64,000 bases of DNA from a virus: the IMG/VR virus record IMGVR_UViG_3300036845_000196, positions 1 through 64,000 of that record. One strand, written 5' to 3'. A program made the translations under genes and the position numbers. Each line of letters opens with the position of its first letter. The stretch's first letter is position 1. Under the pieces are notes generated by a model. That model ran no database searches and was not told where the DNA came from. It was given only the letters and a program-made list of their open reading frames with translations. Positions 7,006-46,012 of this stretch are shown piece by piece.

Positions 7006-7030
7006 ATTCTTGGTTTCCTTTGGAGTCGTT

Positions 7031-7087
7031 TGGTTAGCTTGGCTACCTTGGCCCTCACGCGACCGCTAGGATTTTACGGCCATAGAG
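7031..7087 (+). repeat. family-A boundary repeat, left copy of cassette 1
   Basis: 57 bp beginning TGGTTAGCTTGGCTACCTTG and ending TTACGGCCATAGAG. It is the inverted partner of 7376-7433; the two outer blocks are conserved and the central ~17 bp differ. On the minus strand it encodes the last residues (SMAVKS) and stop of the enclosed gene. Confidence 0.85.
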
Positions 7088-7365
7088 ACTTGCAAGGGCC
7101 ACGAAAGCCAACGGTTTATCCGATACTGCAAAATCACGCGGCTGCGTTCTTTTCTTACTATGCTGTATTCAATACCGAGAAAATCCACGCGCCATTCAAA
7201 ACAATCCCTCAGTGGAAGCCAGCGGATTTCAAAACCGCGGCGGTAGTACGGCCAACCTTCGCGATCATCACGACTCCACCCAATGCGGAACGACCATGTG
7301 TTTGTCATGGTCCCAAAATCCATTCGATTAAATGCAACCCCGCACTTTTCGCCGCGCCAAAACAT
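7066..7365 (-). CDS. cassette gene: hypothetical Trp/Arg-rich protein (99 aa)
   Basis: ATG at 7365 lies behind GGTGGAGAAA, which is part of the segment joined to the right repeat. The product begins MFWRGEKCGVAFNRMD and ends SMAVKS, where the last six codons come from the left repeat. It is richer in Trp and Arg than its neighbours. The gene is the only content of a 403-bp element with inverted family-A ends. No family recognised. Confidence 0.55.
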   Translation of the reverse strand: MFWRGEKCGVAFNRMDFGTMTNTWSFRIGWSRDDREGWPYYRRGFEIRWLPLRDCFEWRVDFLGIEYSIVRKERSRVILQYRINRWLSWPLQVSMAVKS

Positions 7366-7375
7366 TTTCTCCACC

Positions 7376-7433
7376 CTCTATGGCCGTAAGAATCTCACAG
7401 AAAAATCGCGCGCCAAGGTAGCCAGTCTACCCA
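7376..7433 (-). repeat. family-A boundary repeat, right copy of cassette 1
   Basis: 58 bp; on the minus strand it starts TGGGTAGACTGGCTACCTTG and ends ACGGCCATAGAG. It is upstream of the cassette gene and ends 8 bp before the stop codon of the 826-residue gene. Confidence 0.85.
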
Positions 7434-7440
7434 AAAACTT

Positions 7441-9921
7441 CTACCCCTCCGCCTCCAAATCCCCATGCCCATGAGGAATAGGCTTCACATCGGCATCCTT
7501 CGGCTCGTTCGTAAACGGCCCTCTTTCCAACTTCGATTCCTGCCCTCGACACCACGCCGACCACCCATTCCAGTCAACCCCTATTTTCCTCGCGTGCGCC
7601 CGCTCATTCGGAGTGCCGGATCGGTTATGCGCTTTGAGATAAATTTTCTTACGCTCCGGCGTCGAAGGTTCGCGCTTGTGCAGACTTTTAAATTCTCTCA
7701 GCAAGTTTTCCAAATCCTCACGCTCCGGCACCTCGTGATGCAGCAGCACATCGTCCACGTCGACGGTCTTGCCCTTGATGTTCGCCGTCGCTGGAATGTT
7801 TTTGTTCTTATACATCGTCGCGCCGTCGATCGACATGCAGGACATCCACGGGCCGTCGTGGGTGGCGTCGATTTTGACTGTACTCACGCCCTTAGCCGGC
7901 TTGGTCGTATCGCCGTTTTCCAGCCAGTGCTTAAAACCATCGACCGGCATTTCCGTGACATGGCCCATGCGTTCACGGCCGCGACCGTCGGAGAACGCGG
8001 CGCGATAGGTTTTGTTGACCTGTGCCCGCGATGCAAAACCGAGAAACGCTTTGTGCTCGTCGAACTTTCTGGAGTCCGCGTTCACCTGATCGACGATGTA
8101 AACCGTGGGCGCTTTCAGATGCGGCCCGATGTAAACGTCAACGTGATCCTTGTCCTTGCCGACGGTGCCTTTGATGTAGCCGTAGTGAGCTGGCATCTTC
8201 ACCGACCACGCCTTGCCACCTTTATCCACGCCGCGCCGGTAATGACCCTTGGCGTTTTCAATGGTGATGTCGAGACCGTGAACGTGAATGTGGTCCTTGG
8301 CGTAATTGCCCGCTTTCTTCTGCGCCTCGGTCGGCTCGTGTTCGATGTTGGAGGCTTCGACGCGACCACCAGCAGCGCGCTCGGCAGCCCTCCGCTCCCA
8401 AAATTTACACACAGCCCACGGCGAGATTATTCCGCGCACAGCACTACATGAACTAGGCGCAACAAACATGCTGCAAGTCCCGCATCGACGCTGCCCCGTG
8501 CCCCCACGGTAGACCGCCTGCACCTTCGTCACCTTCCCCGAAACCGCGCCACCTGTCGCCATGCCTTGATCGGCAAACGGGTCGTGATCGACCGGAGTGG
8601 TGGAAAAGTGCGCGGCGTTGCCTGCAATCAGGCCGGCGATGCCGTATTTTTTTACGATGTTGATCGTATTGGGATCGAAGACCACGAAATTACTCGTCTG
8701 CGGTTGTTTCAATTGACCGCGAAGGCTGCCGATTTTATCCTGAATATCCTCGATATGCCTTTGGTCTACGTTGCCGTTCGGGTCGGCTCCGCCTTTGCGG
8801 AGATATTCGATGTCGGCTTGGTGGGATGCAATCTTGTTCTGAATATCGGAATCGCTTAAACGCCGCGACCCCTGATCCAGATATTTGATGCCGGGGATGC
8901 CTGCTTGGCGAAGGGCCTGTGACGAATAAGCCGGATCATGATTTCCTAATCTAAGAACGCGAGACTTATCGCCGCCGACCATCGCAAGGGATTCGTCGTA
9001 TGTGTTGCCGCCTTGCTTCCATAGCGACTGCGGATTATCGCGGATCGGATAGGTATATTTCGTCATGCCACCGACAATTGAACTGCCGCTAAGGTCATCG
9101 TCGGCCAATTTCATCTTTTCCCACGTTTCCGGGGAATAGTCCGATTTTTGGGTCTTGCCAGCGAGATAATCCGCGAGGGCGCCCTTGATCTCTGGCGTGA
9201 CGCCAAGCGCCTCCTGCACCTTCGGGTGCTGCTCACTCAGCGGCTTATCCCAGTCCAAAAAATGATCGGGATCGGCGGCTATGTTGACTTCGTACATGCG
9301 ACCGCGCTGCGGATCGTTCGCAATCAGATTCTTCGCTTCTTGTTCCGTTAAGCCATTCGTCTTTTCGTTTGTTTGATGTCTGCCGCCGCCGGCATATTCA
9401 ACCGTATAGGTGCCATCATCCTCCCTCACCATGTATGGTTCCGGGGATAGCGCTTTTTTATATTCCTCGCTTACCGCCGGATTCTCCGCAAAATACAATC
9501 CATGCCCGTACGCCTGGGCGCCCTCTCCGGTTCCTATCTTGGACAGGTCGAACTTGTCGAAGTCGTAGGGGGAACCGTGATAGGCGCGGATGCCTTGGGG
9601 GATAATATCTTCGGCCGCTTCCGCGATTGGTTTTAGCGCCCGCGCTTCCGGCGCCATCAACGCGGGCACCGCCCCCAGCGCGAACATCTGGGCTTCCTCT
9701 GGCGTCATATTTCCGCGTAGCGCACTCACGGCATCGTTGATTCCCAGTGCAGACCCGACACCGCCTGCGATTGTTGATGGCGCCTGCGCCATTTCGGCGG
9801 GGATGTTCTGTTGTGGGATTGTCTGGCCGGATTTTGGTGTTGGGGCGTCGGCGAACTGGGGAGTGTAGTTCACCGGCATCAGATCGTAATCGGGGGGAGT
9901 ATTAAGGTTTGGGTCATCCAC
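7441..9921 (-). CDS. polyvalent virion-associated protein: ART-like, HiPIP-like and pyrophosphatase-like domains (826 aa)
   Basis: Residues ~112-425 resemble the ADP-ribosyltransferase domain of phage polyvalent proteins (AYHGSPYDFDKFD, GLYFAENPAVSEEYKKA). Around 475-510 is a high-potential iron-sulfur-like Cys pattern (CGTCSMFVAP, CSAVRG, VCKFWE). Around 535-690 is the polyvalent-protein inorganic-pyrophosphatase-like domain (HIHVHGLDITIENAKG, MPAHYGYIKG, DHVDVYIGPH). The C-terminus (VDVDDVLLHHEVPE, IYLKAHN) resembles the polyvalent metal-dependent hydrolase segment. Such proteins are thought to enter the host with phage DNA. It follows two very long virion proteins, which fits an ejected protein. 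Confidence 0.75.
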   Translation of the reverse strand: MDDPNLNTPPDYDLMPVNYTPQFADAPTPKSGQTIPQQNIPAEMAQAPSTIAGGVGSALGINDAVSALRGNMTPEEAQMFALGAVPALMAPEARALKPIAEAAEDIIPQGIRAYHGSPYDFDKFDLSKIGTGEGAQAYGHGLYFAENPAVSEEYKKALSPEPYMVREDDGTYTVEYAGGGRHQTNEKTNGLTEQEAKNLIANDPQRGRMYEVNIAADPDHFLDWDKPLSEQHPKVQEALGVTPEIKGALADYLAGKTQKSDYSPETWEKMKLADDDLSGSSIVGGMTKYTYPIRDNPQSLWKQGGNTYDESLAMVGGDKSRVLRLGNHDPAYSSQALRQAGIPGIKYLDQGSRRLSDSDIQNKIASHQADIEYLRKGGADPNGNVDQRHIEDIQDKIGSLRGQLKQPQTSNFVVFDPNTINIVKKYGIAGLIAGNAAHFSTTPVDHDPFADQGMATGGAVSGKVTKVQAVYRGGTGQRRCGTCSMFVAPSSCSAVRGIISPWAVCKFWERRAAERAAGGRVEASNIEHEPTEAQKKAGNYAKDHIHVHGLDITIENAKGHYRRGVDKGGKAWSVKMPAHYGYIKGTVGKDKDHVDVYIGPHLKAPTVYIVDQVNADSRKFDEHKAFLGFASRAQVNKTYRAAFSDGRGRERMGHVTEMPVDGFKHWLENGDTTKPAKGVSTVKIDATHDGPWMSCMSIDGATMYKNKNIPATANIKGKTVDVDDVLLHHEVPEREDLENLLREFKSLHKREPSTPERKKIYLKAHNRSGTPNERAHARKIGVDWNGWSAWCRGQESKLERGPFTNEPKDADVKPIPHGHGDLEAEG

Positions 9922-9937
9922 GGCCGAATGTCCTTGA

Positions 9938-9954
9938 ACTCAGTGCGGTCACCC
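9938..9954 (-). repeat. family-B boundary element (B3 type)
   Basis: On the minus strand this is GGGTGACCGCACTGAGT, 16 bp upstream of the start of the polyvalent gene. It pairs in inverted orientation with the B2 element at 10052-10096. Confidence 0.7.
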
Positions 9955-9959
9955 AACCG

Positions 9960-10031
9960 TCAAATATTAAACGGTTCTCTTGTGGGGTGCTTTGACGTTA
10001 TGCCCTGCGTGAATCGGCGTGTGTCCTGCAT
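9960..10031 (-). CDS. possible 23-residue ORF between family-B elements
   Basis: ATG at 10031 preceded by GGGGTGGTT; reads MQDTRRFTQGITSKHP and stops at 9960. It lies inside the B3/B2 bounded interval and overlaps both arms of a 20-bp inverted repeat. Expression is uncertain, and it may only be filler of an otherwise empty cassette. Confidence 0.25.
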   Translation of the reverse strand: MQDTRRFTQGITSKHPTREPFNI

Positions 10032-10054
10032 AACCACCCCACAAGAGAACCGTT
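9970..10054. repeat. perfect 20-bp inverted repeat with 45-bp spacer
   Basis: AACGGTTCTCTTGTGGGGTG at 9970-9989 is repeated exactly in inverted orientation at 10035-10054. The arms are immediately inside family-B elements and carry no T-run, so this is not a simple terminator. Confidence 0.85.
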
Positions 10055-10096
10055 GACCGAGTCCGGTGCCGCTGCACCCAAAGCCTCTCGTGACCC
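10052..10096 (+). repeat. family-B boundary element (B2 type)
   Basis: GTTGACCGAGTCCGG followed ~15 bp later by CCTCTCGTGACCC. It lies just beyond the stop of the gene 10114-12585; on the minus strand it would be upstream of the 23-residue ORF. Confidence 0.8.
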
Positions 10097-10113
10097 AGAA
10101 TCTTACCCTAATT

Positions 10114-18201: not shown

Positions 18202-18287
18202 CACGGTGCATTTCCTCGTGGATGACATTTTATGGGCTTTCGGTTATGGGCATAAGTTTGTCTCATTCTCGCATCGTCGCGCGACAA

Positions 18288-18303
18288 CTCAGTGCGGTCA
18301 CCC
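18288..18303 (-). repeat. family-B boundary element (B3 type)
   Basis: On the minus strand GGGTGACCGCACTGAG; its TGA is the stop codon of the enclosed gene. Inverted partner of 18584-18620. The stretch 18202-18287 beyond it holds no gene. Confidence 0.75.
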
Positions 18304-18594
18304 ACGCGAAAGTGAAACGCTGGATATATCCTTCCACATTCGCAAGCCGGCTACGAGTTGGCTTCTAGGCACGACTTCAATTTCCTCTATCGCAAACTCG
18401 CCCAACAAATTATAGCCGGTCACCGTAAATCGACAGGGATGCGCGGCCGAAGTGAGGGCAATTCCATCGCGCGGAAACACCAACGATGCCTTGATTGGCA
18501 TCAGACTCGCCGCGCGCACGATTGCCGGCGCCACAACCAAACTAGCCGCAGCACCAAAAAAGAACCCGCGCCGACTGAGACTAGTTGACCGCAC
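18298..18594 (-). CDS. small exported protein with twin-arginine-like leader (98 aa)
   Basis: The GTG at 18594 has GGAG 8 bases upstream, both within the family-B element. The N-terminus LSRRGFFFGAAASLVVAPAI is a twin-arginine-type signal (S-R-R-x-F-F) with an AxA-like site near residue 30 (VRAAS). The remainder is a beta-rich domain of ~65 residues (HPCRFTVTGYNLLGEFAIEE). The gene fills a cassette bounded by B1 and B3 elements. A second protein with the same leader type is at 39103-39531. Confidence 0.6.
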   Translation of the reverse strand: MRSTSLSRRGFFFGAAASLVVAPAIVRAASLMPIKASLVFPRDGIALTSAAHPCRFTVTGYNLLGEFAIEEIEVVPRSQLVAGLRMWKDISSVSLSRG

Positions 18595-18620
18595 CGTTAT
18601 CACTCCGCCCTCGTGACCCA
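18584..18620 (+). repeat. family-B boundary element (B1 type)
   Basis: GTTGACCGCACCGTTATCAC followed by CCTCGTGACCCA. On the minus strand it supplies the ribosome site GGAG and the GTG start of the exported protein. Confidence 0.8.
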
Positions 18621-18636
18621 AAACCCCTACCTGATT

Positions 18637-19194
18637 CTACGGCCCAAACCACCCTTGGGCATTGCATATTACGGTAGAAATCCCCGTTGACAACGAGAAA
18701 GTGAGTGCTGACCCCACTGCCGTCCGTAGCGGTGTGGGAAACACCATAGGCTGAAAGCTCGTGGTGGCCAGAAAGAACCGCGAGGTCGCCAGATCATTGA
18801 GGGTCACCACGCAGGAAGCGGTCGCCTGGTTGCTGAACTGCAGGCTGTTGATGTAGTATCGCGCCGTCGAGATTGCGGCAAAAAGCTGCACTGCGGTCGT
18901 CGTCGCCGAGGTTGTGGACGCACTCACCATGATCGAGGTGGCGACCTGCACCGTCACCGGCAGGATCACCAAGGCCGTCGCGATCGAAACCGGCAGGACG
19001 CTCTGGTCCGACGCGATCACCACCGGCAGCGACGTGGCCGAAACCTTTTGGCCGAGCGTCAAGGCGGTTCCGCTGACTTGCGTCAGGTTCACCGGCACAA
19101 CCGGGAGCACCGTCGTTCCCAGTTCCTGGCTGATCTGGCCAAGATTGGTGACCACGTTTTTGAGCGTTGAGTTTACGTCGTCGAGCGACGCCAC
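18637..19194 (-). CDS. virion structural protein, Thr/Val/Ser-rich (185 aa)
   Basis: GTG start preceded by AAAGGACAC. Begins with NSTLKNVVTNLGQISQEL, then a low-complexity beta-type Val/Thr/Ser region and ends with a compact domain. Composition matches the other tail or fibre proteins of this block. The N-terminal helix is nearly repeated in the 50-residue protein directly upstream (NNTLKDVVTNLSTIVTNI), suggesting a partial duplication. Confidence 0.6.
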   Translation of the reverse strand: MASLDDVNSTLKNVVTNLGQISQELGTTVLPVVPVNLTQVSGTALTLGQKVSATSLPVVIASDQSVLPVSIATALVILPVTVQVATSIMVSASTTSATTTAVQLFAAISTARYYINSLQFSNQATASCVVTLNDLATSRFFLATTSFQPMVFPTPLRTAVGSALTFSLSTGISTVICNAQGWFGP

Positions 19195-19349: not shown

Positions 19350-19407
19350 TGGTTAGCTTGGCTACCTTGTCTGTCACGTCACCGCTGGACTTTTACATGC
19401 CATGGAG
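19350..19407 (+). repeat. family-A boundary repeat, left copy of cassette 2
   Basis: 58 bp beginning TGGTTAGCTTGGCTACCTTG, ending TTTTACATGCCATGGAG; the right block is diverged from the ACGGCCATAGAG consensus. On the minus strand it codes the end of the cassette gene (QASMACKS). Confidence 0.75.
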
Positions 19408-19649
19408 GCCTGGTTCTTTTCCCGCTCGCGCCTCGCCCATTCGTGGGCATCCTCAATGCGGCCAGATTCTAATTCGTCCGCGAGGACACGCAACCCAGCC
19501 GGGGTGATGCACGCAAAGCCACCATCCTCTGTCTTCAGTAATCCCCGCTTGACCAAACTGAGCGCCACTTTATCTGGAACGATCAACGCACAACTTGGCG
19601 ACGCAAGAGCCCGCAGCAAACCCCGCTGTTTTGTCCCCAAATGAACCAT
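19374..19649 (-). CDS. cassette gene: winged-helix-like protein (91 aa)
   Basis: ATG at 19649 behind GAGGGTGATA. The segment LSLVKRGLLKTEDGGFACIT then PAGLRVLADEL has the layout of a winged helix (recognition helix, wing, final helix). It is the only gene of a 365-bp element with inverted family-A ends, and its last codons lie in the left repeat. Role unknown; a small DNA-binding regulator is plausible. Confidence 0.6.
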   Translation of the reverse strand: MVHLGTKQRGLLRALASPSCALIVPDKVALSLVKRGLLKTEDGGFACITPAGLRVLADELESGRIEDAHEWARREREKNQASMACKSPAVT

Positions 19650-19656
19650 TATCACC

Positions 19657-19714
19657 CTCTATGGCCGTAAGAATCTCACAGAACTTTCGAGCGCCAAGGT
19701 AGCCAGTCTACCCA
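19657..19714 (-). repeat. family-A boundary repeat, right copy of cassette 2
   Basis: 58 bp, on the minus strand TGGGTAGACTGGCTACCTTG to TTACGGCCATAGAG. Nearly identical to 7376-7433, including the central TTCTGTGAGATTC block. Confidence 0.85.
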
Positions 19715-19722
19715 AACAAACC

Positions 19723-21978
19723 TCAACGCCTCCCACTCGGCGCATACCGATACCTGATCCGCCCCAACCGCCAGAAACTCCCCGCATCCGACGATGCGAC
19801 TTGTATTGCCATCTGCCTTCCCCTAAATCTCACCGACAACCATTCCGGCGATGACTGTGTCACAGTATAGGGTCCATAGACCGTAGGCGAATCACCCGGA
19901 TAGTTCACCACAAGAAACGACAACTGGATATTGGCCGTCTGCGCCGCCCCGAAGAATCCCCACTTGAAGTCCGGCAATATCTGATCGATGAAGGCAAAAT
20001 CCTCGCCTTCCGACAGGAAGAAATATCCCGTCGTAAAGGACACCGCCATCGGCTGACCCGCAGCATCGTTCGAAGTTTCGTGCTGGTAGATCGTCCCGCC
20101 AGCCACCGCCCCGATCGGATTGCCTAGGATACTCTGATCTGTCCACGCCGATCTGGCCAAAAGTCCACAATCCCACGGCGCCCCCTGCTCCGTGATGTTG
20201 AACTTGACGTAGGAATCGTTCTCCCCCGACACGCTCGACGTTGACGGAAACTCCCAGCCCACCTCGTTGAACGGCGTGTTCGGGATCGACCGCACGTTCT
20301 GCTGGAACAACGGATTGATCCGTTGAAACACAAAATCCCACACCGGGCACGGGATCACCGCGACGCCATTGCTGGTCATGGAATAAAAATTACTCGGCCC
20401 CATCCAGTAGACGTTGCCTCTCAGTTCCATGACCGCGTGCGACGACACCGCTCCCGCCCCAGCTCCGATCTTGTTGAAGCCGAACACGAACGGCAGTCCA
20501 GAATAGTTCATCGCCCACGCATCTTCGTCGGTGATGATGAGATTCTGATTCGGCGTGGATAGTCCACAGATGATCTTGGAACCATTCGACAAACGATACG
20601 ACCCAGCCTCCGTCGTCGCCAGCACCTGAAAATTCGTGTAGTCACCGATGGTGGACCATCGCACCAGCAACGGGTCTTGGGTGATGCCGATGTTCTGCGC
20701 CACGGTGGAACCCCAGCACACCAATATCTGCTGCTGCGTCGAGACGAAGATGCCGCCATTGAAGAACGGCGCCGTGGCCACAAGACCAGCGGTTGAAAAC
20801 CCGGTGTTCGGCGTCCACGCATAGACACCTCCGCCCATCGGACAGGCCAAATAAGTCTGCCCCCAATTATCCGAGGTCCAATCGGTCGCCGTGATCGGCG
20901 TGCCGGTCATCTGCCCCGTCGCCGCGCCAGTACCGAATCCCCCAGACCCGAACGCACCGATGCCGAAACCGGAGCCACCACCCGCAGGTCCGATGTTGAG
21001 ATAATAAACAATCTCCGCTTTGCCGGCGTTCATCACCACGACGGTGCTTGACGAAGCCTGCGCATTGACCGTGATCGAAAAATTATTAATGTCGGTGACA
21101 GACACCACGCTATAGGTGCCGACGATAGCCACCCCACCGACCGTTGTTGAAATCGGAAAGTTCACTGTATTGCCGACGACCTGGCCATGCGCCGCCAGAA
21201 ACACGTTGACGGTGGCACTTCCAGACGTGGGCGTAAACACGGGAACGGAGCAGATAACGATATTGTCGCCGCTGCCAACACCGGCCCCCGCCGCGTTGTT
21301 GGTCATGACGATGGTACTACCGGTCGTTGACAACACCAGCGTACTCGCTGGAATCGACGCCGGCGTAGTCAGGTCGAACACCACCATATTGGCGATGACC
21401 CACGCGGGCGTCGCAACAAAGTGCAGCGTCGCATTGCCTGCCGCCGTTGTATTATTGGTGGCGAACGGATTGGTTTCCGTCGTCGTCGCGTTGGCTGCCG
21501 CCGTGATCTGATATTGCGTCGTACCTTGCACCAAGGTGACCGGATAAGCGCCGCTCAAAATCAAACCGCCGACCGAAACCGGCACGTTGAAATAAACCGA
21601 ATCATTGGTCGTCAGCGTCGCGGTTAGATTGGGATCGATGATGGTGACGATGGGTGAACTTGCCACCGTCGAAAAGTTCGGCGCGAAGTCCGATGTGAAA
21701 GTCTGCGGGGTGATATTCTGCAGCGACCCCGACGTGATGACGCCAAGCATGGTGGTCGTGCCGACGCCGAGGTGATTGATCTGATTCAAATCCTCCCAGG
21801 CGTGCAATTCGCGGGGAGTGCCGGCGACATTGGAATAGAAGATCGTCCAGCCGCCCAGTTTCTGCACCAAGCCGTCGCGATAGCGGATCAGTTGCGAGAC
21901 CGACACACCGGCTTTGAGCAGCGTTGGCGTCTGCTCTACGTCAACTCCGGGGATCAGCGTGACCGAACCGTAAGGCAT
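19723..21978 (-). CDS. P22 gp10-like packaged-DNA stabilisation / stopper protein (751 aa)
   Basis: Begins MPYGSVTLIPGVDVEQTPTL and continues ALLKAG-type then IRYRDGLVQKLGGW, the signature start of the gp10-like head-completion proteins of P22-type podoviruses. The rest is beta-rich with many Gly/Thr-rich strands, consistent with the beta-propeller body of that family, although it is longer (P22 gp10 is about 470 residues). The extra length may be an inserted Ig-like or beta domain in the region ~120-330 (VNVFLAAHGQVVGNTVNF). Located with the tail genes. Confidence 0.7.
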   Translation of the reverse strand: MPYGSVTLIPGVDVEQTPTLLKAGVSVSQLIRYRDGLVQKLGGWTIFYSNVAGTPRELHAWEDLNQINHLGVGTTTMLGVITSGSLQNITPQTFTSDFAPNFSTVASSPIVTIIDPNLTATLTTNDSVYFNVPVSVGGLILSGAYPVTLVQGTTQYQITAAANATTTETNPFATNNTTAAGNATLHFVATPAWVIANMVVFDLTTPASIPASTLVLSTTGSTIVMTNNAAGAGVGSGDNIVICSVPVFTPTSGSATVNVFLAAHGQVVGNTVNFPISTTVGGVAIVGTYSVVSVTDINNFSITVNAQASSSTVVVMNAGKAEIVYYLNIGPAGGGSGFGIGAFGSGGFGTGAATGQMTGTPITATDWTSDNWGQTYLACPMGGGVYAWTPNTGFSTAGLVATAPFFNGGIFVSTQQQILVCWGSTVAQNIGITQDPLLVRWSTIGDYTNFQVLATTEAGSYRLSNGSKIICGLSTPNQNLIITDEDAWAMNYSGLPFVFGFNKIGAGAGAVSSHAVMELRGNVYWMGPSNFYSMTSNGVAVIPCPVWDFVFQRINPLFQQNVRSIPNTPFNEVGWEFPSTSSVSGENDSYVKFNITEQGAPWDCGLLARSAWTDQSILGNPIGAVAGGTIYQHETSNDAAGQPMAVSFTTGYFFLSEGEDFAFIDQILPDFKWGFFGAAQTANIQLSFLVVNYPGDSPTVYGPYTVTQSSPEWLSVRFRGRQMAIQVASSDAGSFWRLGRIRYRYAPSGRR

Positions 21979-23579: not shown

Positions 23580-24305
23580 CTACGTTCGCGGCGGCGTCGC
23601 CAGCGGCGCCGGAGTTTTCGACGACCAGCCCTCCGAGGTGAATTTCTTCATCGCTTCCTCGGTCTGCGCCGATTTGAGCAGCGTCTGCGTATGCGCCATC
23701 CAACTCGGCCCCATCTGCGGGTTATCGACATAACCGGAGGCGCCAAAGTTTTGTTGATATGCCGACAAAAAACTCATCGAAGCCGCCAACGTCAAGTCTG
23801 GAAAATACACCGAAAGCAACGTGGTCACATTGGTGGACGACAGCGGCTTTGGTCGGTATGTGCCGACCACCTCAGCCTGATAGTTCTGATCCGGCCACGG
23901 CGCGATGATGTAGGTCGTCTGCGATGACGGCGCAAAATACTGCGGCACGCCTGAGCCAACCGAACTCGGAAACGTAAAATCCATGAACTCGCGCGAGCTT
24001 GGCGTTAGCGCATTGCGCGTGCCGAGATTCGGGTTGCTCTGCCCAGCCGGGGTAATCGCATAAATATTATTGACCACGATGAACGTTCCATTCGCAGACG
24101 GCAACGAAAACTGCCGCAAGCCGGCGACAAACGTGGTCGATGAATCCGACGTGATGGTGTTGAGCAATTGCAGTTCGCGATAAAGCATTTGCTCCATGTC
24201 GTCGATCGTATTTGGGAGCGCAGCCTGAAAGCCGGGATCGTTCGAGGGGATGCCCTGGAGCATGTTGGCGAGGCTAGAGACCAGTGTGGAATAGTTGAGG
24301 CTCAT
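23580..24305 (-). CDS. tail adaptor-like structural protein (241 aa)
   Basis: The ATG at 24305 (MSLNYSTLVSSLANMLQ) overlaps the previous stop by ATGA; an upstream MDGGG start is less likely. The layout NTIDDMEQMLYRELQLLNT, a beta-rich middle, and a C-terminal helical hairpin matches a phage adaptor-like family found with gp10-type proteins (comparable in position to P22 gp4). Function inferred from this resemblance and position. Confidence 0.6.
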   Translation of the reverse strand: MSLNYSTLVSSLANMLQGIPSNDPGFQAALPNTIDDMEQMLYRELQLLNTITSDSSTTFVAGLRQFSLPSANGTFIVVNNIYAITPAGQSNPNLGTRNALTPSSREFMDFTFPSSVGSGVPQYFAPSSQTTYIIAPWPDQNYQAEVVGTYRPKPLSSTNVTTLLSVYFPDLTLAASMSFLSAYQQNFGASGYVDNPQMGPSWMAHTQTLLKSAQTEEAMKKFTSEGWSSKTPAPLATPPRT

Positions 24306-26014
24306 CGGCCCACCACCGTCCAATGAGACCCGTTATACCAACCCAGCACGGTAGACCCCCCGCTGCCGGCGATGTTCGCACCAAATGCAGTGGTGTTGGA
24401 ATCGGTGACGCAGGCTATCATGCCCGCTTGAGGCGCACTCGGCAACGCCGTGAACACGCTATTGCCGACGGCTGGCGTGGCTGAATCCGACAAACCCATT
24501 TTTTGCGAAAACCCGGCCGACATATTCGGCGGCCACGTCACGCTCTTGTCGCCGACAATCTGAGCCGCCCTCGTCATGAAAAATTGCTGGCCCGAGATTC
24601 CGGTCGTATTACCAGTGAAGGACAGCGGCCCACTGACGTCGATGAGCGCACCGGAATCGCCAACCAACAAAGCATTTGTCATTCCAAACGTTCCGTTGAT
24701 GCGAAGCGCGATTTGCGGCTGGCAAACGGCCCGATCTGTAAGACTGATAAAAGCTGAGGCCGTACCGCTCAGGCTATTTCCAACTCCAACATTTATTGAA
24801 ACTTGATTTGACCCAGCTACGTCATTGCCGTTCGGACCATTCAGGCCAAAATCACAATTGTTGATATCGACGATGCAAAACTGACCGCCAGCATTGATAA
24901 AGGTACAGGCACTCGTTCCGCTATTCGAAAATCCAATTCCGTCAAATCCCACGGAATTATAATCCGTCAGCGACAGCGCCGTTTGATGGTCTGCTATCTG
25001 CCACGCACACGCAGTTGCGCTGGTCAGGTTGCCAAAGATCGTGACCTGGCTGCCACCTTGCGTCAGTGCGCCGCTCACACTAACATTCTCGGCGACCGGA
25101 ACGGAAGTCGTCTGCGGCAACTGAATACGAATCAAATTGCCGCCCTGTTGCAACGTCTGATTCTGAATGACGGAGAACGCGTGTTGTATTGTTTTGAAAG
25201 ACCCAGTGCCGCCCTGCGCACCGAGCCCGTCGTTGACCGACGAATCGGTCCCATTGACATTATCGACGTTAAAGGTGATGGACGAGCCAACTCTCAGCGA
25301 CCACGGTTGAATGCCTGGCGACACGATCCATTTGTTGTTGTCATTGATAAGCAACAAACTCTGCTGCGGCCACAGAATCGAAGTCGCAATCCCGTTGAGC
25401 AGCATCGTCTTGCCGCGTCCGGTATCCTCGTTATAAATCTGGCACCAGAAATTTGACTCATAACCGCTTGCGGTATTGGCCGTCAGTTGAAACAGCGTGT
25501 TTCCGCCCAGAGCGATCAACTTGCCGAAATCCGTGGTGGCGAGCGTGTAATTTGCCGTCTGCGCGTTGCGGCCGAACAGCAAACTTGCCGGAATCTGCCA
25601 CGATGGCGGCGATGTCGAGCCTTGGCTGGTGAGAACTTGATTTGCCGTGGTGGCGCCAACAACGCTCAGCGCGCTCGTTGCGTTGCCCAACACCACGCCA
25701 TCAAGCGCAAGTGCGGCAGTGCCGATGCCGCCGTTGACGACGCCAAGCACGCCAGTCACGTTGGCCGTCGTGCCGAGATTGAGTTGCTGAAAACTCGGCG
25801 CCGTCGCCGTACCGTTAGCAATGAGCGGCAACCCCGTCGCACCGTTCGGCAGGATGTACGACGCCAGCGCGGACGCCGTCATCTGATAGTTGATGCCGTT
25901 AGATGCGTTGCCGGGCGAGACTACCTCCAGCAGTTCAGAGCCGGACAACGAGCCCGTGAATTGCTGCAGCGAGGTCAGCCGACCGTCGGAGGGATATGTC
26001 GAGGGATTTGCCAT
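24302..26014 (-). CDS. tail fibre/spike-like beta-helical protein (570 aa)
   Basis: Begins MANPSTYPSDGRLTSLQQFT, a start shared in style with the neighbouring fibre genes. The N-terminal ~100 residues are an anchor-like region (SELLEVVSPGNASNGINYQ); the middle from about 230 to 460 has the ladder of short strands and turns seen in right-handed beta-helix spikes (SVSGALTQGGSQVTIFGNL). The end (TDSNTTAFGANIAGSGG then GWYNGSHWTVVGR) is a small beta domain that I recognise from many phage fibres. Likely receptor-binding. Confidence 0.65.
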   Translation of the reverse strand: MANPSTYPSDGRLTSLQQFTGSLSGSELLEVVSPGNASNGINYQMTASALASYILPNGATGLPLIANGTATAPSFQQLNLGTTANVTGVLGVVNGGIGTAALALDGVVLGNATSALSVVGATTANQVLTSQGSTSPPSWQIPASLLFGRNAQTANYTLATTDFGKLIALGGNTLFQLTANTASGYESNFWCQIYNEDTGRGKTMLLNGIATSILWPQQSLLLINDNNKWIVSPGIQPWSLRVGSSITFNVDNVNGTDSSVNDGLGAQGGTGSFKTIQHAFSVIQNQTLQQGGNLIRIQLPQTTSVPVAENVSVSGALTQGGSQVTIFGNLTSATACAWQIADHQTALSLTDYNSVGFDGIGFSNSGTSACTFINAGGQFCIVDINNCDFGLNGPNGNDVAGSNQVSINVGVGNSLSGTASAFISLTDRAVCQPQIALRINGTFGMTNALLVGDSGALIDVSGPLSFTGNTTGISGQQFFMTRAAQIVGDKSVTWPPNMSAGFSQKMGLSDSATPAVGNSVFTALPSAPQAGMIACVTDSNTTAFGANIAGSGGSTVLGWYNGSHWTVVGR

Positions 26015-26028
26015 CGGTTAGGTTTTCT

Positions 26029-26124
26029 GGGTCACGAGGGCGGAGTGGCTACGGTGCGGTCACCATATCTCTGAAGACCGTTGACCGAGTCCGGTCTCTC
26101 CAACAAACAAACTCTCGTGAAACC
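26029..26124. repeat. paired family-B elements with nothing between them
   Basis: An inverted B1 element (26029-26063, gggtcacgagg through gtgcggtcacc) is followed after ~16 bp by a forward B2 element (26080-26124, GTTGACCGAGTCCGG through CTCTCGTGA). No ORF fits in the interval. Elsewhere the same pair encloses a gene, so this looks like an unfilled or emptied cassette. Confidence 0.75.
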
Positions 26125-26138
26125 AATCTTTCCTTTCC

Positions 26139-26579
26139 TTAAGAAGTTGCCGCCTGCATATAGATCGTCGAAGTCTCCAACGCTCGCGCCCGCGACGGTT
26201 GTTGCGTGTTCGGCACCGGATAGGCCGCACTCATTGTCGTGCCTTCCAGATATTTCGGCAGCGCATCGCCCACGCCGCTCGGATCGGTCGTATTGGCTTC
26301 ATACATCCGCACCCACACTTCATCGATCGGGTAAGGCTCGATGCGCGCATTCGGGATAGACACCGGATCGGGCGGCAGGATGATGGAGCCGAGCTGGCGG
26401 TTTGGTACGTCGAGTTGATCGGCGAAGCATAGGATTCTTTTGTTAATTAACTGCGTTCCGGCCCAATCGTATTGCCACTGCAAATCCACCTGATTCCCGA
26501 TGAAGCCAGATTTATCATCTGTCGCCCATGCGCGCGGATGATTGGTGTCTGTTTGAGTTCGGCGAGGATGAGGGCGCAT
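26139..26579 (-). CDS. virion structural protein, adaptor-like (146 aa)
   Basis: ATG at 26579 with AGGAAGG upstream. Product has a Trp/Asp-rich core (VDLQWQYDWAG, DEVWVRMYEANTTD) and Pro-rich turn segments. The composition and neighbours (adaptor and fibre genes) suggest a head-tail connector or tail tubular component. No specific family recognised. Confidence 0.5.
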   Translation of the reverse strand: MRPHPRRTQTDTNHPRAWATDDKSGFIGNQVDLQWQYDWAGTQLINKRILCFADQLDVPNRQLGSIILPPDPVSIPNARIEPYPIDEVWVRMYEANTTDPSGVGDALPKYLEGTTMSAAYPVPNTQQPSRARALETSTIYMQAATS

Positions 26580-28210: not shown

Positions 28211-29119
28211 TTAAAATCCCCAATAAGCGTGTTGATTGCTATTAAGCGCCGTGCGCTGGGTGCCGGTGAAGGCGACGTTGTCCCAGGCGCCACCTTCTGT
28301 CATTTCGGCTGTAACAGTCCCCTGCGTAAGGCCCACCAAAGGAGCGGCAGTAGTTGTAGAACCTGTTGCTGTGTTAGTAGCCTCCGTTCCATCTACATTT
28401 AAGACAGAACTTGTACCAGTGATAACTCCGTTACCGGCGTGCCAGGAGCCATCTGCAACACTGGTTCTCGCAACAAATCCAGACGTTCCTCCAACTATTC
28501 TCCATACGTTGGCGGCGGCGTTCGCGATAATTCTATTTCCCGCCGCGGCTCCGCCGGCATTTTCACCGGCAAACACAAAAGCCGCCGTGCCGGTTGTACG
28601 ATTGGCAACTGTACTGAGAGAAACCACACCAGTTGCTGGTGTGAAGTTCCCAGAGGCAGACATTGTAGCAGATGAATTTGAAAAATTAAGACACGGCAAC
28701 GCGCCGAGCGCATTTAACACCACCGCAGGCTGGTTAGCCGCCGTCGGCTGCACGACGTGATTACCGTTGCCGGTTTGGTCATACAGCTTAGAACACGTTC
28801 CCGTTGTCGCCGCCAAAAACGTTGTCAACGTCGCAACGTCGAGATTGCCGTTGGCAAGAACATTGATCGTGATGGTCGTGCTATCCGAAGCCCGAAGCAC
28901 GTCCATCGCCGGATTGTTGCCCGGCGCCGCATAGGCTGCGCTATAGCCGCGCAATCCCCACCACATCGAAGCGCTGGCGACAAGATCGCCAGGTCCGACA
29001 TAACTGGCTGGAGGCGCGGACGTTCCCGGCAACACGGTATTATCGCCCGTTGGCGCACCGTTGACGATTCCTGCCGTACTCGCCGTCAGGACCGAGTTAT
29101 TTCCCGTCGGATCGGCCAT
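28211..29119 (-). CDS. fibre protein with arabinofuranosidase/concanavalin-like domain (302 aa)
   Basis: Begins MADPTGNNSVLTASTAGIVN, the same MADPTG start used by the next gene. From about residue 60 the pattern WGLRGYSAAYAAPGNNPAMD, ADGNLD-type, FLAATTGTCSKLYDQTGNGN, and a lectin-like strand set (CLNFSNSSATMSASGNF, GSWHAGNGVITGTSSVLNVD) matches phage and bacterial proteins of the ArabFuran-catalytic/concanavalin-A-like fold. This suggests a glycan-binding or depolymerase fibre. The catalytic residues cannot be judged here. Confidence 0.65.
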   Translation of the reverse strand: MADPTGNNSVLTASTAGIVNGAPTGDNTVLPGTSAPPASYVGPGDLVASASMWWGLRGYSAAYAAPGNNPAMDVLRASDSTTITINVLANGNLDVATLTTFLAATTGTCSKLYDQTGNGNHVVQPTAANQPAVVLNALGALPCLNFSNSSATMSASGNFTPATGVVSLSTVANRTTGTAAFVFAGENAGGAAAGNRIIANAAANVWRIVGGTSGFVARTSVADGSWHAGNGVITGTSSVLNVDGTEATNTATGSTTTAAPLVGLTQGTVTAEMTEGGAWDNVAFTGTQRTALNSNQHAYWGF

Positions 29120-29123
29120 AAGT

Positions 29124-29753
29124 TCACCGCCGCCGTCGCGCCTGCATCACGCCGTAGACGGCGGTCGTTGAAGTCGCAAACGTCCCCAGCGCATTCAAAA
29201 ACGTGGTGCCAGCCGCAGCAAGACTGATACGCGTCGGCCCTACATTCACGCCGGTATCGACGCCACCTGTGAGCCCCGCACCCAAGCCAAGTTGGAATTC
29301 GGCGCCAGAGGTCAGGCCCGGTAACGCCGTATTCGAGACTGTGCTGATGCCGACCGCGAGACCTGTCAGCACCGTGAGAGATTGGACGTGAACGAAGCCG
29401 GAGCCCCACACATCCCAGTCGCCGGCGCTCAGCACCATTGATGCGACGCTGGTTGCCACACCATTTGACATAAGAATCGCCGACGCAGCCGATAGCGCCA
29501 CGCTGGTATATTCCCCAACGTTGCCCGCAGACGCAGCACTTGACGTGGCCACACCGGGAATTTGGCCAAGGATTGCAGTGCCCGCTGGGCCGATCGCCAC
29601 ACCGTTCGAACTGATGACCAGGATATTCGTCGTACCGCCTCCGCTCGACAGGTCGCCGCCAAATGCGGGCATGACCGTAGAGGACAACGTTCCCGTCGTG
29701 AGATTCGACGCGTTATTCGGAACCTGACTATTGATACCCGTCGGGTCCGCCAT
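29124..29753 (-). CDS. fibre-associated structural protein (209 aa)
   Basis: Begins MADPTGINSQVPNNASNLTT. A beta-rich protein with a YTSVALSAASAILMSNGVAT-type motif typical of phage tail proteins that trimerise. It sits 4 bp from the next fibre gene and shares its N-terminal signature, so both may attach to the same tail position. Function not resolved. Confidence 0.55.
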   Translation of the reverse strand: MADPTGINSQVPNNASNLTTGTLSSTVMPAFGGDLSSGGGTTNILVISSNGVAIGPAGTAILGQIPGVATSSAASAGNVGEYTSVALSAASAILMSNGVATSVASMVLSAGDWDVWGSGFVHVQSLTVLTGLAVGISTVSNTALPGLTSGAEFQLGLGAGLTGGVDTGVNVGPTRISLAAAGTTFLNALGTFATSTTAVYGVMQARRRR

Positions 29754-30683: not shown

Positions 30684-30728
30684 GTTGACCGAGTCCGGCG
30701 CCTATCCCGCAAAGGCCCTCTCGTGAGG
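30684..30728 (+). repeat. family-B boundary element (B2 type)
   Basis: GTTGACCGAGTCCGG then CCCTCTCGTGAGG. On the minus strand it lies directly upstream of the DUF6582-like gene. No inverted partner is seen at the other end of that gene. Confidence 0.75.
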
Positions 30729-30739
30729 CAAACGGTGCC

Positions 30740-34367: not shown

Positions 34368-34376
34368 GAAGGTTTT

Positions 34377-34433
34377 TGGGTAGACTGGCTACCTTGGCGC
34401 CCACGCCGCCGAGAGGGTTTTACGGCCATAGAG
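34377..34433 (+). repeat. family-A boundary repeat, solo copy
   Basis: 57 bp from TGGGTAGACTGGCTACCTTG to TTTTACGGCCATAGAG, between two minus-strand genes. No inverted partner is found nearby, so it may be a cassette remnant or a single-ended copy. Confidence 0.8.
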
Positions 34434-34434
34434 G

Positions 34435-34683
34435 CTACACCATTGCTCCTGGCATCCCGTAGGTTGCCGCTATGCGCGCATCCCAGAATTCTTTTTGCGA
34501 AGCGCAGTATTCCATGATTTCAGTTCGACGCCAGCCGTACATTTCCTGCAGGATTGGATACACATCCTCGGCGTTGCGCAAAATCTCCCATAGCAGCCAA
34601 TCCGTGATGATTTGTTGTTGCGCGACCGGAAACAGGAATGGCCGAAACGCTTTGGGGAAGATGCCGCGGAGTTCTTCGGCCAT
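34435..34683 (-). CDS. hypothetical helical protein (82 aa)
   Basis: I use the ATG at 34683 with AAAGG 5 bases upstream; the open frame extends to 34914 but that part is antisense to a membrane gene. Product begins MAEELRGIFPKAFRPFLFPV and is helical and aromatic-rich (ILQEMYGWRRTEIMEYC). Ends against the solo family-A repeat. Confidence 0.5.
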   Translation of the reverse strand: MAEELRGIFPKAFRPFLFPVAQQQIITDWLLWEILRNAEDVYPILQEMYGWRRTEIMEYCASQKEFWDARIAATYGMPGAMV

Positions 34684-34716
34684 GGAACCTTTTACTCCGC
34701 CGCGCGTTCCCCACCC

Positions 34717-34929
34717 ATGATAAGCACACTCATCACCCTCATCATCTATCTGCTGATCGTCGGCGTCATCTGGTATGCCGTCACGACCATCATGGCCGTC
34801 CTTCCGCTGCCGGAGCCGATTAAGACCGTCATCAACGTCCTGCTGATCGTGGTGCTGTGCCTGATCGTGATTTTTGCTTTGCTCGACTTGCTCCCCGCTT
34901 GGATCGGGCCGCATTGGCGATTATCTTAG
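34717..34929 (+). CDS. two-segment small membrane protein on the plus strand (70 aa)
   Basis: Begins MISTLITLIIYLLIVGVIWY, followed by a turn with PLPEPIKTVINVLL and a second hydrophobic stretch (IVVLCLIVIFALLDLL). I recognise this MIST-LLTLIIYLL-type family from alphaproteobacteria and their phages. It is one of only two plus-strand genes in the minus-strand block. Its 3' end overlaps the 3' end of the convergent glycosyltransferase/methyltransferase gene by 98 bp. No strong ribosome site is visible. Confidence 0.6.
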   Translation: MISTLITLIIYLLIVGVIWYAVTTIMAVLPLPEPIKTVINVLLIVVLCLIVIFALLDLLPAWIGPHWRLS

Positions 34930-37513: not shown

Positions 37514-37540
37514 GGGACTCTTTGGGGTTTGTTAGGTTCG

Positions 37541-37574
37541 GGTCACGAGGGCGGAGCGATTATGGTGCGGTCAA
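37541..37574 (-). repeat. family-B boundary element (B1 type)
   Basis: On the minus strand TTTGACCGCACCATAATCGC then CCTCGTGACC. Its TGA is the stop of the 88-residue gene. Pairs in inverted orientation with 37767-37812. Confidence 0.75.
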
Positions 37575-37826
37575 ACGTTCTTTCTTCGCTTTCTCCCGAT
37601 AGGCTTTGAAGAACTTAGCAGCACGTTCGTCTATTTCAACGGGACTACGCGCTCTGTCGATAAGACGCATGAGCGTTCGTTTTATCTTCGCCCTGTCTGA
37701 AAGCAAATCGTATGGGATCGGAATAAACGTCAACCCAATCTGTATCCACCGCTCCGAAAGCGGAATGTTGACCGAGTCCGGCCCATCAACTCGCGCATGA
37801 CTCTCGTGACCAAAATGCCTAGCCAT
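37560..37826 (-). CDS. basic small protein whose ends are encoded by boundary elements (88 aa)
   Basis: ATG at 37826 with GGAGG 4 bases upstream; it overlaps the neighbour stop as ATGGCTAG. The first 20 residues (GHESHARVDGPDSVN) are translated from the B2 element, and the stop lies in the B1 element. Between them is a basic helical domain (DRAKIKRTLMRLIDRARSPV). Boundary elements have thus been absorbed into the coding sequence. A longer ORF to 37883 is unlikely. Confidence 0.5.
   Translation of the reverse strand: MARHFGHESHARVDGPDSVNIPLSERWIQIGLTFIPIPYDLLSDRAKIKRTLMRLIDRARSPVEIDERAAKFFKAYREKAKKERLTAP
37767..37812 (+). repeat. family-B boundary element (B2 type)
   Basis: GTTGACCGAGTCCGG then GACTCTCGTGACC, read through as the N-terminal codons of the minus-strand gene 37560-37826. 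Confidence 0.8.
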
Positions 37827-41410: not shown

Positions 41411-41424
41411 GGTGATTCAGGTTT

Positions 41425-41460
41425 GGTTCACGAGAGGTTTGTGGTTACGGTGCGGTCAAC
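41425..41460 (-). repeat. family-B boundary element (B1 type)
   Basis: On the minus strand GTTGACCGCACCGTAACCAC then CTCTCGTGAACC. It encodes the C-terminal codons (VDRTVTTNLS) and stop of the upstream gene. Opposite-facing partner is at 42511-42558. Confidence 0.8.
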
Positions 41461-41709
41461 ATTGGCAATTACATTTACCTTTTCTTGAAGCCCATCAAGA
41501 TGGTCACTCATGAGCAGGATCATTCCTGCCTTTGCTGCGGTGATATGCGTGTTGTCATCGATAGACTGCCGAAGAATGGCGAAGCCGTACTTTCCGTTTC
41601 GACTAATTACCAACGCATCGTGGTTCCATTGGATGTCAATTCGACAGTCGCCCGGCAACTCAATAGCCGCAGCCAAATCCTCGGCAACTTGCAGCATATT
41701 TCTCGGCAT
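41428..41709 (-). CDS. hypothetical protein ending inside a boundary element (93 aa)
   Basis: Begins MPRNMLQVAEDLAAAIELPG. A compact alpha/beta protein (CRIDIQWNHDALVISRNGKY) whose last ten codons are family-B sequence. No family recognised. It shares a cassette-like interval with the following 240-residue gene. Confidence 0.5.
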   Translation of the reverse strand: MPRNMLQVAEDLAAAIELPGDCRIDIQWNHDALVISRNGKYGFAILRQSIDDNTHITAAKAGMILLMSDHLDGLQEKVNVIANVDRTVTTNLS

Positions 41710-41767
41710 GCGATTGACCGTGATGACGCGCAGCCAACGCTGGCCGCGAATGAACCAAACCTAAAAA

Positions 41768-42490
41768 CTACGCCGCCTTATAATCGCGCCGCGCACGTTT
41801 CTCTTTGACCAGGCGCGCCTCGCCACCACCGGAACCGCCCGGCAGTTTGGTGGCTTTGTCCACACCTTGCGGCGATTCGATCTTGCCGCCGCGCGCATAC
41901 GTGACCGGCTTGCCGCGGAACATATCGCCGAGGTCTGACTTGCCCGGAGTATGGGTCGGCTGCGTTCCGTTCTTCACGCCCTCTTTCCACGCGGGGCCGT
42001 CCTTGACACTACCGCCGCGCGCCCGCATCGGCATTCCCGGCGGCATCATCGGCGGACGCGGAGGCATCCCCGGAGCGCCACCTGGCGGCGGCATACCACC
42101 GGGAGGCATTCCAGGCGGACCTGCAGCACCCATCGGCGGAGCACCCATCGGGGGCATCGGCGGATGGGGCGGCGGCATGGGCATTCCACCGGGCGGCATC
42201 ATCGGACCTGCGCCCGGACCATTGGGGTGCGAGGCGTTGATGATATTGACCGTGGTGCCCTTGTGCTTAACCTTGCCGCCGCGCGCCCGCTTGTCGGCCC
42301 GATGTTTGACCTTGCCGCCGTGCATCCGCAGCGAGTTCGGCTTGACCAGTTTCTTGACCAACTTCACATCGGCTTTTTCGTCGGGGTGATTCGCGGGGAC
42401 AGCGCCACCGTGGGCGTAGCCTTTGGTAAGGCGCTTGGCGCGACTGTGTTCGACGATGGATTGGCGATGGGCGGCGTGGGGGTGCGGCAT
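41768..42490 (-). CDS. Pro/Gly/Met-rich basic virion-associated protein (240 aa)
   Basis: The centre (residues ~90-155) is a collagen-like Pro/Gly/Met repeat (PPGGMPPPGGAPGMPPRPPM). Flanks carry the repeated GG-x-V/I motif: HGGKVKHRADKRARGGKVKH, RARGGSVKDG and YARGGKIESP. The protein is probably disordered and DNA- or capsid-associated. The ATG is preceded by GGGAGAAAATTAA and lies just after a B2 element. Confidence 0.55.
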   Translation of the reverse strand: MPHPHAAHRQSIVEHSRAKRLTKGYAHGGAVPANHPDEKADVKLVKKLVKPNSLRMHGGKVKHRADKRARGGKVKHKGTTVNIINASHPNGPGAGPMMPPGGMPMPPPHPPMPPMGAPPMGAAGPPGMPPGGMPPPGGAPGMPPRPPMMPPGMPMRARGGSVKDGPAWKEGVKNGTQPTHTPGKSDLGDMFRGKPVTYARGGKIESPQGVDKATKLPGGSGGGEARLVKEKRARRDYKAA

Positions 42491-42748
42491 TTAATTTTCT
42501 CCCGATGAAACGTCGACCGAGTCCGGCGTGTCAGACGGCACAGACTCTCGTGACCCAAACACCTTTACAGCCTTGATATAATACCACGGCTGGGCCGGTT
42601 CAGGCCACACCGGAACAACAAAAACCTCAGCGCAAGTATCGATCAAAGCCCTTGCGGCCATCGCTTCTTTTTCCGTCAGGAAAGCCTGCACAGGGCCCGA
42701 ATGGCCCTCAACGCCGTTATTCACTGCGATTACCCAGATAGATTTCAC
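42491..42748 (-). CDS. small hypothetical protein downstream of the portal gene (85 aa)
   Basis: GTG at 42748 overlaps the portal stop (GTGA). Begins VKSIWVIAVNNGVEGHSGPV, with PVQAFLTEKEAMAARALIDT in a helix. The C-terminus VFGSRESVPSDTPDSVDV is translated from a B2 element. No family recognised. Confidence 0.5.
   Translation of the reverse strand: MKSIWVIAVNNGVEGHSGPVQAFLTEKEAMAARALIDTCAEVFVVPVWPEPAQPWYYIKAVKVFGSRESVPSDTPDSVDVSSGEN
42511..42558 (+). repeat. family-B boundary element (B2 type)
   Basis: CGTCGACCGAGTCCGG then GACTCTCGTGACCCA. On the minus strand it is immediately upstream of the Pro/Gly-rich gene and encodes the end of the 85-residue protein. Confidence 0.8.
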
Positions 42749-44928: not shown

Positions 44929-45178
44929 TTAGGTTTTTTGGATCACGAGAGGCTGGGGTTAGGGTGTGGTCAACCACGGGAGGCGGCCTCACGCGGTCCT
45001 TGATGTCGCGGAATGATTCGCCTTGGGATACAGCGCCAGCCGCCGACAGCAGGCGCTCGATCGCCATTGCCGCCTCGCGCATGATGCTGGCACAGATTGA
45101 AGCATTATGCGACGCCGGATTATTTTCCACGTCGTTGGCGCGCACGCGCAGTCGTTCGATGAGATCAACGTCGGTCAT
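44921..45178 (-). CDS. hypothetical protein (85 aa)
   Basis: ATG at 45178 behind GAGGAAACCC. Begins MTDVDLIERLRVRANDVENN and is helical; the C-terminus (VDHTLTPASRDPKNLNG) comes from a B1 element and overlaps the portal start as ATGGCTGA. The next upstream protein begins with a similar MTDVDVDELR, suggesting duplication. Confidence 0.55.
   Translation of the reverse strand: MTDVDLIERLRVRANDVENNPASHNASICASIMREAAMAIERLLSAAGAVSQGESFRDIKDRVRPPPVVDHTLTPASRDPKNLNG
44941..44974 (-). repeat. family-B boundary element (B1 type)
   Basis: On the minus strand GTTGACCACACCCTAACCCC then CTCTCGTGATCC; the most diverged B1 copy. It is read through as the tail of gene 44921-45178. Confidence 0.7.
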
Positions 45179-45472: not shown

Positions 45473-45756
45473 AGCCGCGGCCTCACTTTCATCACCGGCA
45501 TTGTCGAATCACCCTCATCGGTCACCCGCTCCAGAATGCGTTTCTTCAACGCATCGCAGCCGAGATTGAGCGATCCTGCGTCCGTCCCGCCGATGGTCGT
45601 GGCAAAGCCGGTCTTCATGCAGACCACGATGCCGACGGTGTAGATGTTGCCCTTCTTGGCTTCCTCCAGGCATTCCTCCAGCTTGCCGAGACAGTCGAGT
45701 TGGTCGTCGTTGAGCGGGGTGGGGGAGAGAAGGATGAAGGGGGTTTTTGGGGTCAT
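45469..45756 (-). CDS. hypothetical protein (95 aa)
   Basis: I start at the ATG 45756 (MTPKTPFILLSPTPLNDDQL); the frame extends upstream to a TTG at 45795 inside a B3 element. The core is alpha/beta (GNIYTVGIVVCMKTGFATTI). Its TGA overlaps the ATG of the membrane microprotein. No family recognised. Confidence 0.55.
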   Translation of the reverse strand: MTPKTPFILLSPTPLNDDQLDCLGKLEECLEEAKKGNIYTVGIVVCMKTGFATTIGGTDAGSLNLGCDALKKRILERVTDEGDSTMPVMKVRPRL

Positions 45757-45777
45757 TCGCGGTCTTTCGTGTTGCGG

Positions 45778-46012
45778 CTCAGTGCGGTCACACAAACTCA
45801 GATCGAAGCACGGACGATATTTCCCGAGGGTGTTAAGGCTTCCGTGACGCAGCCCACCGCCGGTATCGTCCGCTTCGCTTCATGTTGGCCCGCTCCCTTG
45901 GTGCCCGAGTAACGGATGCGCGGCTGCCATCCAAGAACGTCCCGCGCCTCATGCCTGGTAGCTGGTGGGCCTGGTGGATTCAGTTTTCTCCGCGCATGGG
46001 TGACCGCACTGC
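45778..46012. other. non-coding interval flanked by inverted B3-type elements
   Basis: Begins with the inverted B3 element (ctcagtgcggtcac, 45778-45791) and ends with a forward one (gggtgaccgcactg, 45998-46012). The ~200 bp between have no convincing ORF on either strand, although one minus-strand frame without a start (ending GNIVRASI) is open across it. It may be a decayed cassette gene or a small RNA. It separates the terminase genes from the 44.9-45.8 kb cluster. Confidence 0.5.

Follow-up and report, generated by a model that had tools for sequence, protein, structure and literature searches.

What does a pair of facing repeats do between two genes when nothing lies between its arms? The window, that is the whole 64,000-nt stretch of DNA analysed here, is taken from the IMG/VR record of an uncultured virus, 65.8 kb in length, of which it covers the first 64 kb; the majority of its genes are transcribed leftward. 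At 26015-26138, an intergenic space of 124 bp consists almost wholly of two facing repeat copies (hereafter, arms), which are listed in Table 1 together with their neighbouring genes. The original prediction had placed a pair at 26029-26124 and considered it an empty cassette, the counterpart of filled ones elsewhere in the window. The pair itself was real, since profile searches recovered both arms in facing orientation with no gene between them.

Arms were about 40-60 nt long and contained a conserved inner and a conserved outer box; those of family B were two-box elements of about 40-48 nt. Using profiles built from relatives, and so trained on the same clade, 18 arms of family B (7 B2, 6 B1 and 5 B3) and nine of family A were found in the window, and the same profiles found none in 50 shuffled windows. 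These subtypes correspond to the three sequence versions of family B that had been distinguished before, and the presence of many copies was confirmed, their number being 18 and not about 15. Profile arms also bounded the pairs proposed at 18288-18620, 37541-37812, 56369-56601 and 9938-10096. Inside the last of these, which had been said to enclose almost nothing, there were a 23-codon ORF (by eye) and a 20-bp perfect inverted repeat. The pair proposed around two genes at 41425-42558 turned out not to be a pair: relatives retain gene 41768-42490 whether or not they have arms there, and the two arms flanking it therefore belong to separate junctions. Genes were called with a simple caller and grouped into families as single-linkage clusters; junction names (31|30 etc.) follow the later of two cluster numberings, and cargo clusters 42, 88 and 178+179 the earlier one. 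A degenerate inner A box, perhaps a remnant, was also seen at 4964-4977 in junction 47|4, where G009, G023 and G026 have family-A cassettes and G019 a B cassette.

Table 1. Coordinates of arms, arm pairs and neighbouring genes in the window.
Feature	Position	Strand	Description
Left arm of the gene-less pair (in direction of transcription)	26079-26122	+	Subtype B2, TTGACCGAGTCCGG...CTCGTGA; profile 39.9 bits
Right arm of the gene-less pair (in direction of transcription)	26027-26064	-	Subtype B1, TGACCGCACCG...CTCGTGACCC; profile 35.0 bits
Centre between these arms	26065-26078	none	14 bp, no gene
Whole insertion	26015-26138	-	124 bp, between stop TAA 26139-26141 and start ATG 26012-26014
Upstream gene	26139-26579	-	146 aa, no PHROG match
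Downstream gene	24302-26014	-	570 aa, no PHROG match
B3/B2 pair	9907-10097	none	Nested hairpin and 23-codon ORF inside
B3/B1 pair	18256-18622	none	ORF 18298-18603 (Tat-like signal by eye)
B1/B2 pair	37537-37813	none	ORF 37560-37826, in-frame fusion to both arms
B2/B3 pair	56366-56628	none	ORF 56385-56579 (internal ATG at 56430)
B3/B3 pair	45751-46046	none	No clear cargo gene
Lone left B2 arm	42512-42558	+	Junction 11|31
Lone right B1 arm	41423-41460	-	Junction 31|30; shared by five phages, where 0, 1 or 2 genes adjoin it
Lone left B2 arm	30684-30731	+
Left B2 arm	57302-57346	-	Upstream of ORF 57364-57636
Lone right B1 arm	54647-54683	+
Weak right B1 arm	44937-44974	-	21.5 bits
Family-A pair	7030-7434	none	One ORF
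Family-A pair	19350-19715	none	ORF 19374-19649
Lone right A arm	34376-34434	-	Adjoining ORF 34435-34914
Family-A pair	48123-48476	none	ORF 48159-48407 (DUF551)
Family-A pair	55132-55472	none	ORF 55208-55459

The arms were found in other uncultured soil phages. An exact pattern for the B2 arm matched 27 stretches of viral contigs and a family-A pattern matched 17. In 25 non-redundant records (875 kb) the profiles detected 107 B2, 43 B1, 24 B3 and 55 A arms, with none in reversed sequence; the addition of five records and of a family C raised the total to 284 arms, all in IMG/VR phage records. Family A was also present in G023-G026, which have no match to the terminase of the window. G031 had no arms by these profiles, and G032, a relative by its virion protein, had no A or B arms by them; G032 (locus set L217-L220) carried its own family C, CAGGTGACCGATGA...CTCATGAACCAAA, with the spacing and layout of family B. 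No arms were detected in 50,697 GenBank phages, nor family A in plasmids, and the stretch of the window from 20 to 44 kb had no match among cultured phages and plasmids. A bacterial origin was considered on account of nine pattern hits in bacterial genomes, and these were taken as chance because they scored 12-17 bits with the B profile, against 34-40 bits for the B2 arms of the window.

Neighbouring A arms faced each other in 25 of 25 cases, each pair enclosing 134-1048 bp that held an ORF; neighbouring B arms did so in 45 of 74, and many other B arms were lone. Cargo was transcribed in the same direction as co-oriented flanking genes by 63 to 6. The median distance was 7.5 nt from a stop codon to the left arm after it, and 23 nt from a right arm to the start codon that follows; 70% of left arms had a stop, and 65% of right arms a start, within 40 nt, compared with 11% for random places. 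Inspection indicated that arms are often translated, left B arms giving N-termini such as MGHES...PDSVN and right A arms the C-termini SMAVKS/P, and that right B arms contain stops in several frames. Unrelated cargo proteins (that of 37560-37826 and those of many relatives) had common N-termini GHES..PDSVN and C-termini SMAVKS/P or TESGG..SRD, which is explained by in-frame translation of the arms.

Gene-less pairs recurred in G000, G002, G003, G006, G010, G014, G016, G022 and G028, usually with 7-19 bp between the arms and just upstream of a start. At the junction of the 26,029 pair, G002, G008, G011 and G012 have TAATG, with overlapping genes and no arms. Eighty loci of upstream-gene relatives were fetched, and in 22 of the 25 examined besides L129, several of them near-identical, the gene gap at this junction ranged from -4 to +3 bp. 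The only examined locus with an arm there was L129, from the distant relative G028, which has a gene-less pair of 115 bp differing in sequence from that of the window. No gene was seen between arms at this junction in any relative examined. The expectation that related phages would carry genes inserted at about position 26065 was therefore not borne out, and neither was the empty cassette. With TAATG there in four fetched relatives and a gene inside in none, the comparison points to the insertion of a gene-less pair: on sequence comparison, the 26,029 pair is a gain of about 124 bp or a patchy feature, and is an inserted gene-less pair rather than a demonstrated emptied or waiting cassette.

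Other junctions gave a different result, and there the general idea of cassette exchange was supported by relatives, specifically at 31|30, 12|13 and 21|32. Some phages carried a whole arm pair at a junction where others had none, and at many junctions the genes of arm-free relatives abut. The right arm of 31|30 was conserved in five phages, with no cargo in G002 and G021, one gene in G000, an unrelated gene in G014 and two genes in G028; in G031 the genes at this junction overlap by 4 bp. At 12|13, an orthologous right arm (94%) was without cargo in G021 and with cargo in G014, and six relatives had 1-4 bp. At 21|32, an orthologous left arm was followed by nothing in G021 and by unrelated ORFs in G002 and G014. 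Downstream of gene 19723-21978, the window has its family-A cassette at a junction where G002, G003, G022 and G028 have gene-less B pairs and G012 a hybrid of left A arm and right B arm. The same cargo family could be found at several junctions, as for clusters 42 and 88 and the two-gene set 178+179, and cargo families occurred with A arms, B arms or no arms; ORF 57364-57636 belongs to cluster 88, of which G014 has a member next to a B arm at a different locus. Cargo cluster 15, at first counted at two loci, was dropped as these loci are probably allelic. Homologous small genes were also observed at different junctions in the window (34435-34914, A right arm) and in G021 (18520-18810, B3 arm).

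Arms tended to remain with their junction, and the cargo (one small accessory gene, several or none) varied between related phages. We put at about even the chance that arms are docking ends resident at their loci, between which cargo is exchanged by recombination; that the 26,029 pair would be a gene-less member of such a phage-specific system seems to us equally balanced. During phage co-infection, recombination at or inside the arms would substitute one cargo for another, the arms acting as short portable homology and their inverted layout keeping the cargo in the reading direction. Arms might supply ribosome-site and stop signals and so allow an inserted gene to leave its neighbours undisturbed.

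In accordance with this, homology running through flank and arm between genomes ended at the inner end of the arm 185 times (82 arms), about 20-fold more commonly than at random places (mean 8.6, maximum 24). The outer end was such an end point 55 times (random 8.3, maximum 21). Relatedness of the genomes makes these counts non-independent, and a conserved arm lengthens an alignment in its own right. No excess of breakpoints at arms was seen for cargo-side homology. Arm-bearing junctions, as these counts show, differ mainly in the content between arms. Arms were more alike within the same junction than between different junctions (identities of 0.871 vs 0.806 for A left, 0.832 vs 0.795 for A right, 0.793 vs 0.715 for B left and 0.777 vs 0.692 for B right; permutation p of 0.01 or less in all four tests, compared within subtype). 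The two arms of one pair were no more alike than arms taken from different pairs (permutation p about 0.8), in an alignment that scored a few pairs badly, that at 26,029 among them; a gap-penalised repeat for family A gave the same result. Against docking ends we counted the many lone arms, the 49 of 90 expanded junctions (about half) that had no arm at all, the lack of a recombinase common to all arm-bearing records and the cargo of G014 at 31|30, which lies outside the stub of a left arm. Moreover, recombination between arms does not suffice to explain how a pair arises where arms were lacking, the case at 26,029.

Another explanation takes the units for non-autonomous transposons, similar to MITEs or mobile insertion cassettes, with arms as terminal inverted repeats and a transposase acting in trans to place units, with or without cargo, between genes. 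Agreeing with it are the facing repeats at the ends of units whose passengers are unrelated, the cleanly empty sites, dispersal over 65 junctions and a few nearly identical pairs, such as that of G019 at 28908-29297 (96%). We regard it as unlikely, as no adjacent target-site duplication was found at any of 74 pairs (25 A and 49 B), the two arms of a unit show no special likeness, arms track the junction and not the cargo, and no Y1 (REPIN-type) transposase was detected in 17 records.

Pairing of the facing arms in polycistronic mRNA, with effects on processing, stability or translation coupling, was a further alternative. By eye, gene-less pairs have small palindromic centres, and the 9905-10100 pair, with its perfect inverted repeat, folds far better than shuffles (z -4.8). 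The 26,029 pair, on the contrary, folded no better than shuffles (z -1.4, 19 of 200). There was no Rfam match; no covariation or excess complementarity was found between the arms of a pair, and many pairs are parted by up to 1 kb of cargo. RNA hairpins are consequently a very improbable explanation. Breakpoints, same-junction likeness, the dissimilarity of arms within pairs and the absence of target duplications favour locus-resident ends with exchanged cargo over both transposition of intact units and RNA pairing of the two arms, as does the occurrence of cargo families at different junctions.

The strongest rival holds that a phage DNA-binding protein recognises the arms at gene junctions, and that variable genes build up there only for the reason that such places tolerate insertions. 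We consider this rather doubtful as the sole explanation; a role as binding sites could coexist with exchange. A precedent are the extended start-associated sequences (ESAS) of Cluster K mycobacteriophages, 17-bp repeats located upstream of a 13-bp SAS, tied to particular gene families and proposed as binding sites of a phage protein (PMC3203893). Like the arms, they are many-copy imperfect inverted repeats a few bp apart beside gene starts, with a lineage-specific consensus and no support for mRNA hairpins (PMC3203893). The tight placement of arms beside stop and start codons, the recurrence of gene-less pairs at one junction in G002, G003, G022 and G028 and the absence of covariation within pairs are in line with binding sites, and the dialects that differ by lineage (family C of G032, CTCATGAACCAAA) parallel the ESAS consensus of each subcluster (PMC3203893). 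Binding sites alone fit poorly, however, with the many relatives that lack arms at the corresponding junction and with G031, which has none at all by these profiles, with homology that stops at the inner edge of arms, with unrelated cargo between orthologous arms and with the finding of no sigma-70 promoter-like or terminator-like site at the 26,029 pair. The arms also differ from ESAS in their length of 40-60 nt, in that most pairs enclose genes and the cargo changes between arms, in following junctions and not particular gene families, and in lacking a linked 13-bp SAS-like repeat: every 12-mer that occurs five times or more in G000 is part of an A or B arm.

Docking ends also resemble the boundary or linker sequences proposed for the exchange of lambdoid modules (Clark 2001; Susskind and Botstein 1978; discussed in PMC3029335), short conserved sequences at module borders that potentially allow swaps by homologous recombination. 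They share with these the ending of homology between phages at the inner ends of arms, and differ in that the same repeat family recurs in facing orientation around single small genes, at dozens of junctions. The 17-bp palindromes of Cluster O mycobacteriophages likewise form many intergenic repeats, and some are tied to indels of gene segments; unlike arms, they are single short palindromes, about a third within genes, and do not form cassette-flanking pairs (PMC4351075). MPME, like the arm units, are very small and end in inverted repeats within phage genomes; they have one conserved sequence and add 6 bp at the target (PMC3029335), and mobile insertion cassettes have ends that carry passengers. 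From MPME, MITEs and mobile insertion cassettes the units described here differ by cargo unrelated between units, unmatched ends within a unit and no target duplication. Integron gene cassettes, with their palindromic attC sites, are single-gene and gene-agnostic; by contrast, no tyrosine recombinase was conserved across arm-bearing records, cassette arrays were not found, and sites lie on both sides of the cargo.

No recombinase common to all arm-bearing records was found among these virus records, which may be fragments. RecT was present in none of 14 records and tyrosine integrase (PF00589) in four of 14, two of them above the cut-off; ERF occurred only in the arm-free G031 and Sak4-like AAA_24 only in G020 and G023. 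Candidate trans-factors were a 61-aa protein, a 138-aa protein and a coiled-coil protein (exonuclease according to PHROGs), which most arm-bearing records encode and G031 and G032 lack; the contrast with these two is weak, since G032 has its own dialect. An HTH protein is encoded at window 53305-53805. AlphaFold predicted a long helical bundle with no PDB sequence match. More tentatively, there might be a dedicated gene-swapping system, a possibility to which we give limited credence, in which lineage-specific dialects of facing ends would be read by a phage-encoded factor and any small accessory gene could be plugged in, removed or moved among dozens of junctions with the neighbouring genes unharmed. 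The conserved coiled-coil gene (window 55486-56364) seems to be replaced by a Sak4-like ATPase in G020 (44102-44620) and G023 (43457-43987), and G031 has an ERF annealase at 43132-43515.

The origin of single-gene mosaicism in phages is an old question, and conserved border sequences have been proposed for it, yet most borders show no recognisable sequence of this kind (PMC3029335). In the present clade, accessory genes at dozens of junctions are delimited by a single repeat system, and as a given junction can be seen filled, empty or without arms, border-guided exchange is open to direct testing. Arms also provide a means of listing accessory genes in uncultured phages. Cargo proteins include DUF5131, DUF551, DHHA1, HTH and 5-hmdU DNA kinase. 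The kinase (PF18723, 1.6e-45) is encoded in a family-A cassette of G012 (24237-25236), and the corresponding cassette in G015, G019 and G023 codes for a DUF5131 protein. Finally, window 7441-9921 codes for a protein of 826 aa whose central domain, about residues 521-689, matches PHROGs named DarB-like antirestriction, endolysin and minor head protein.
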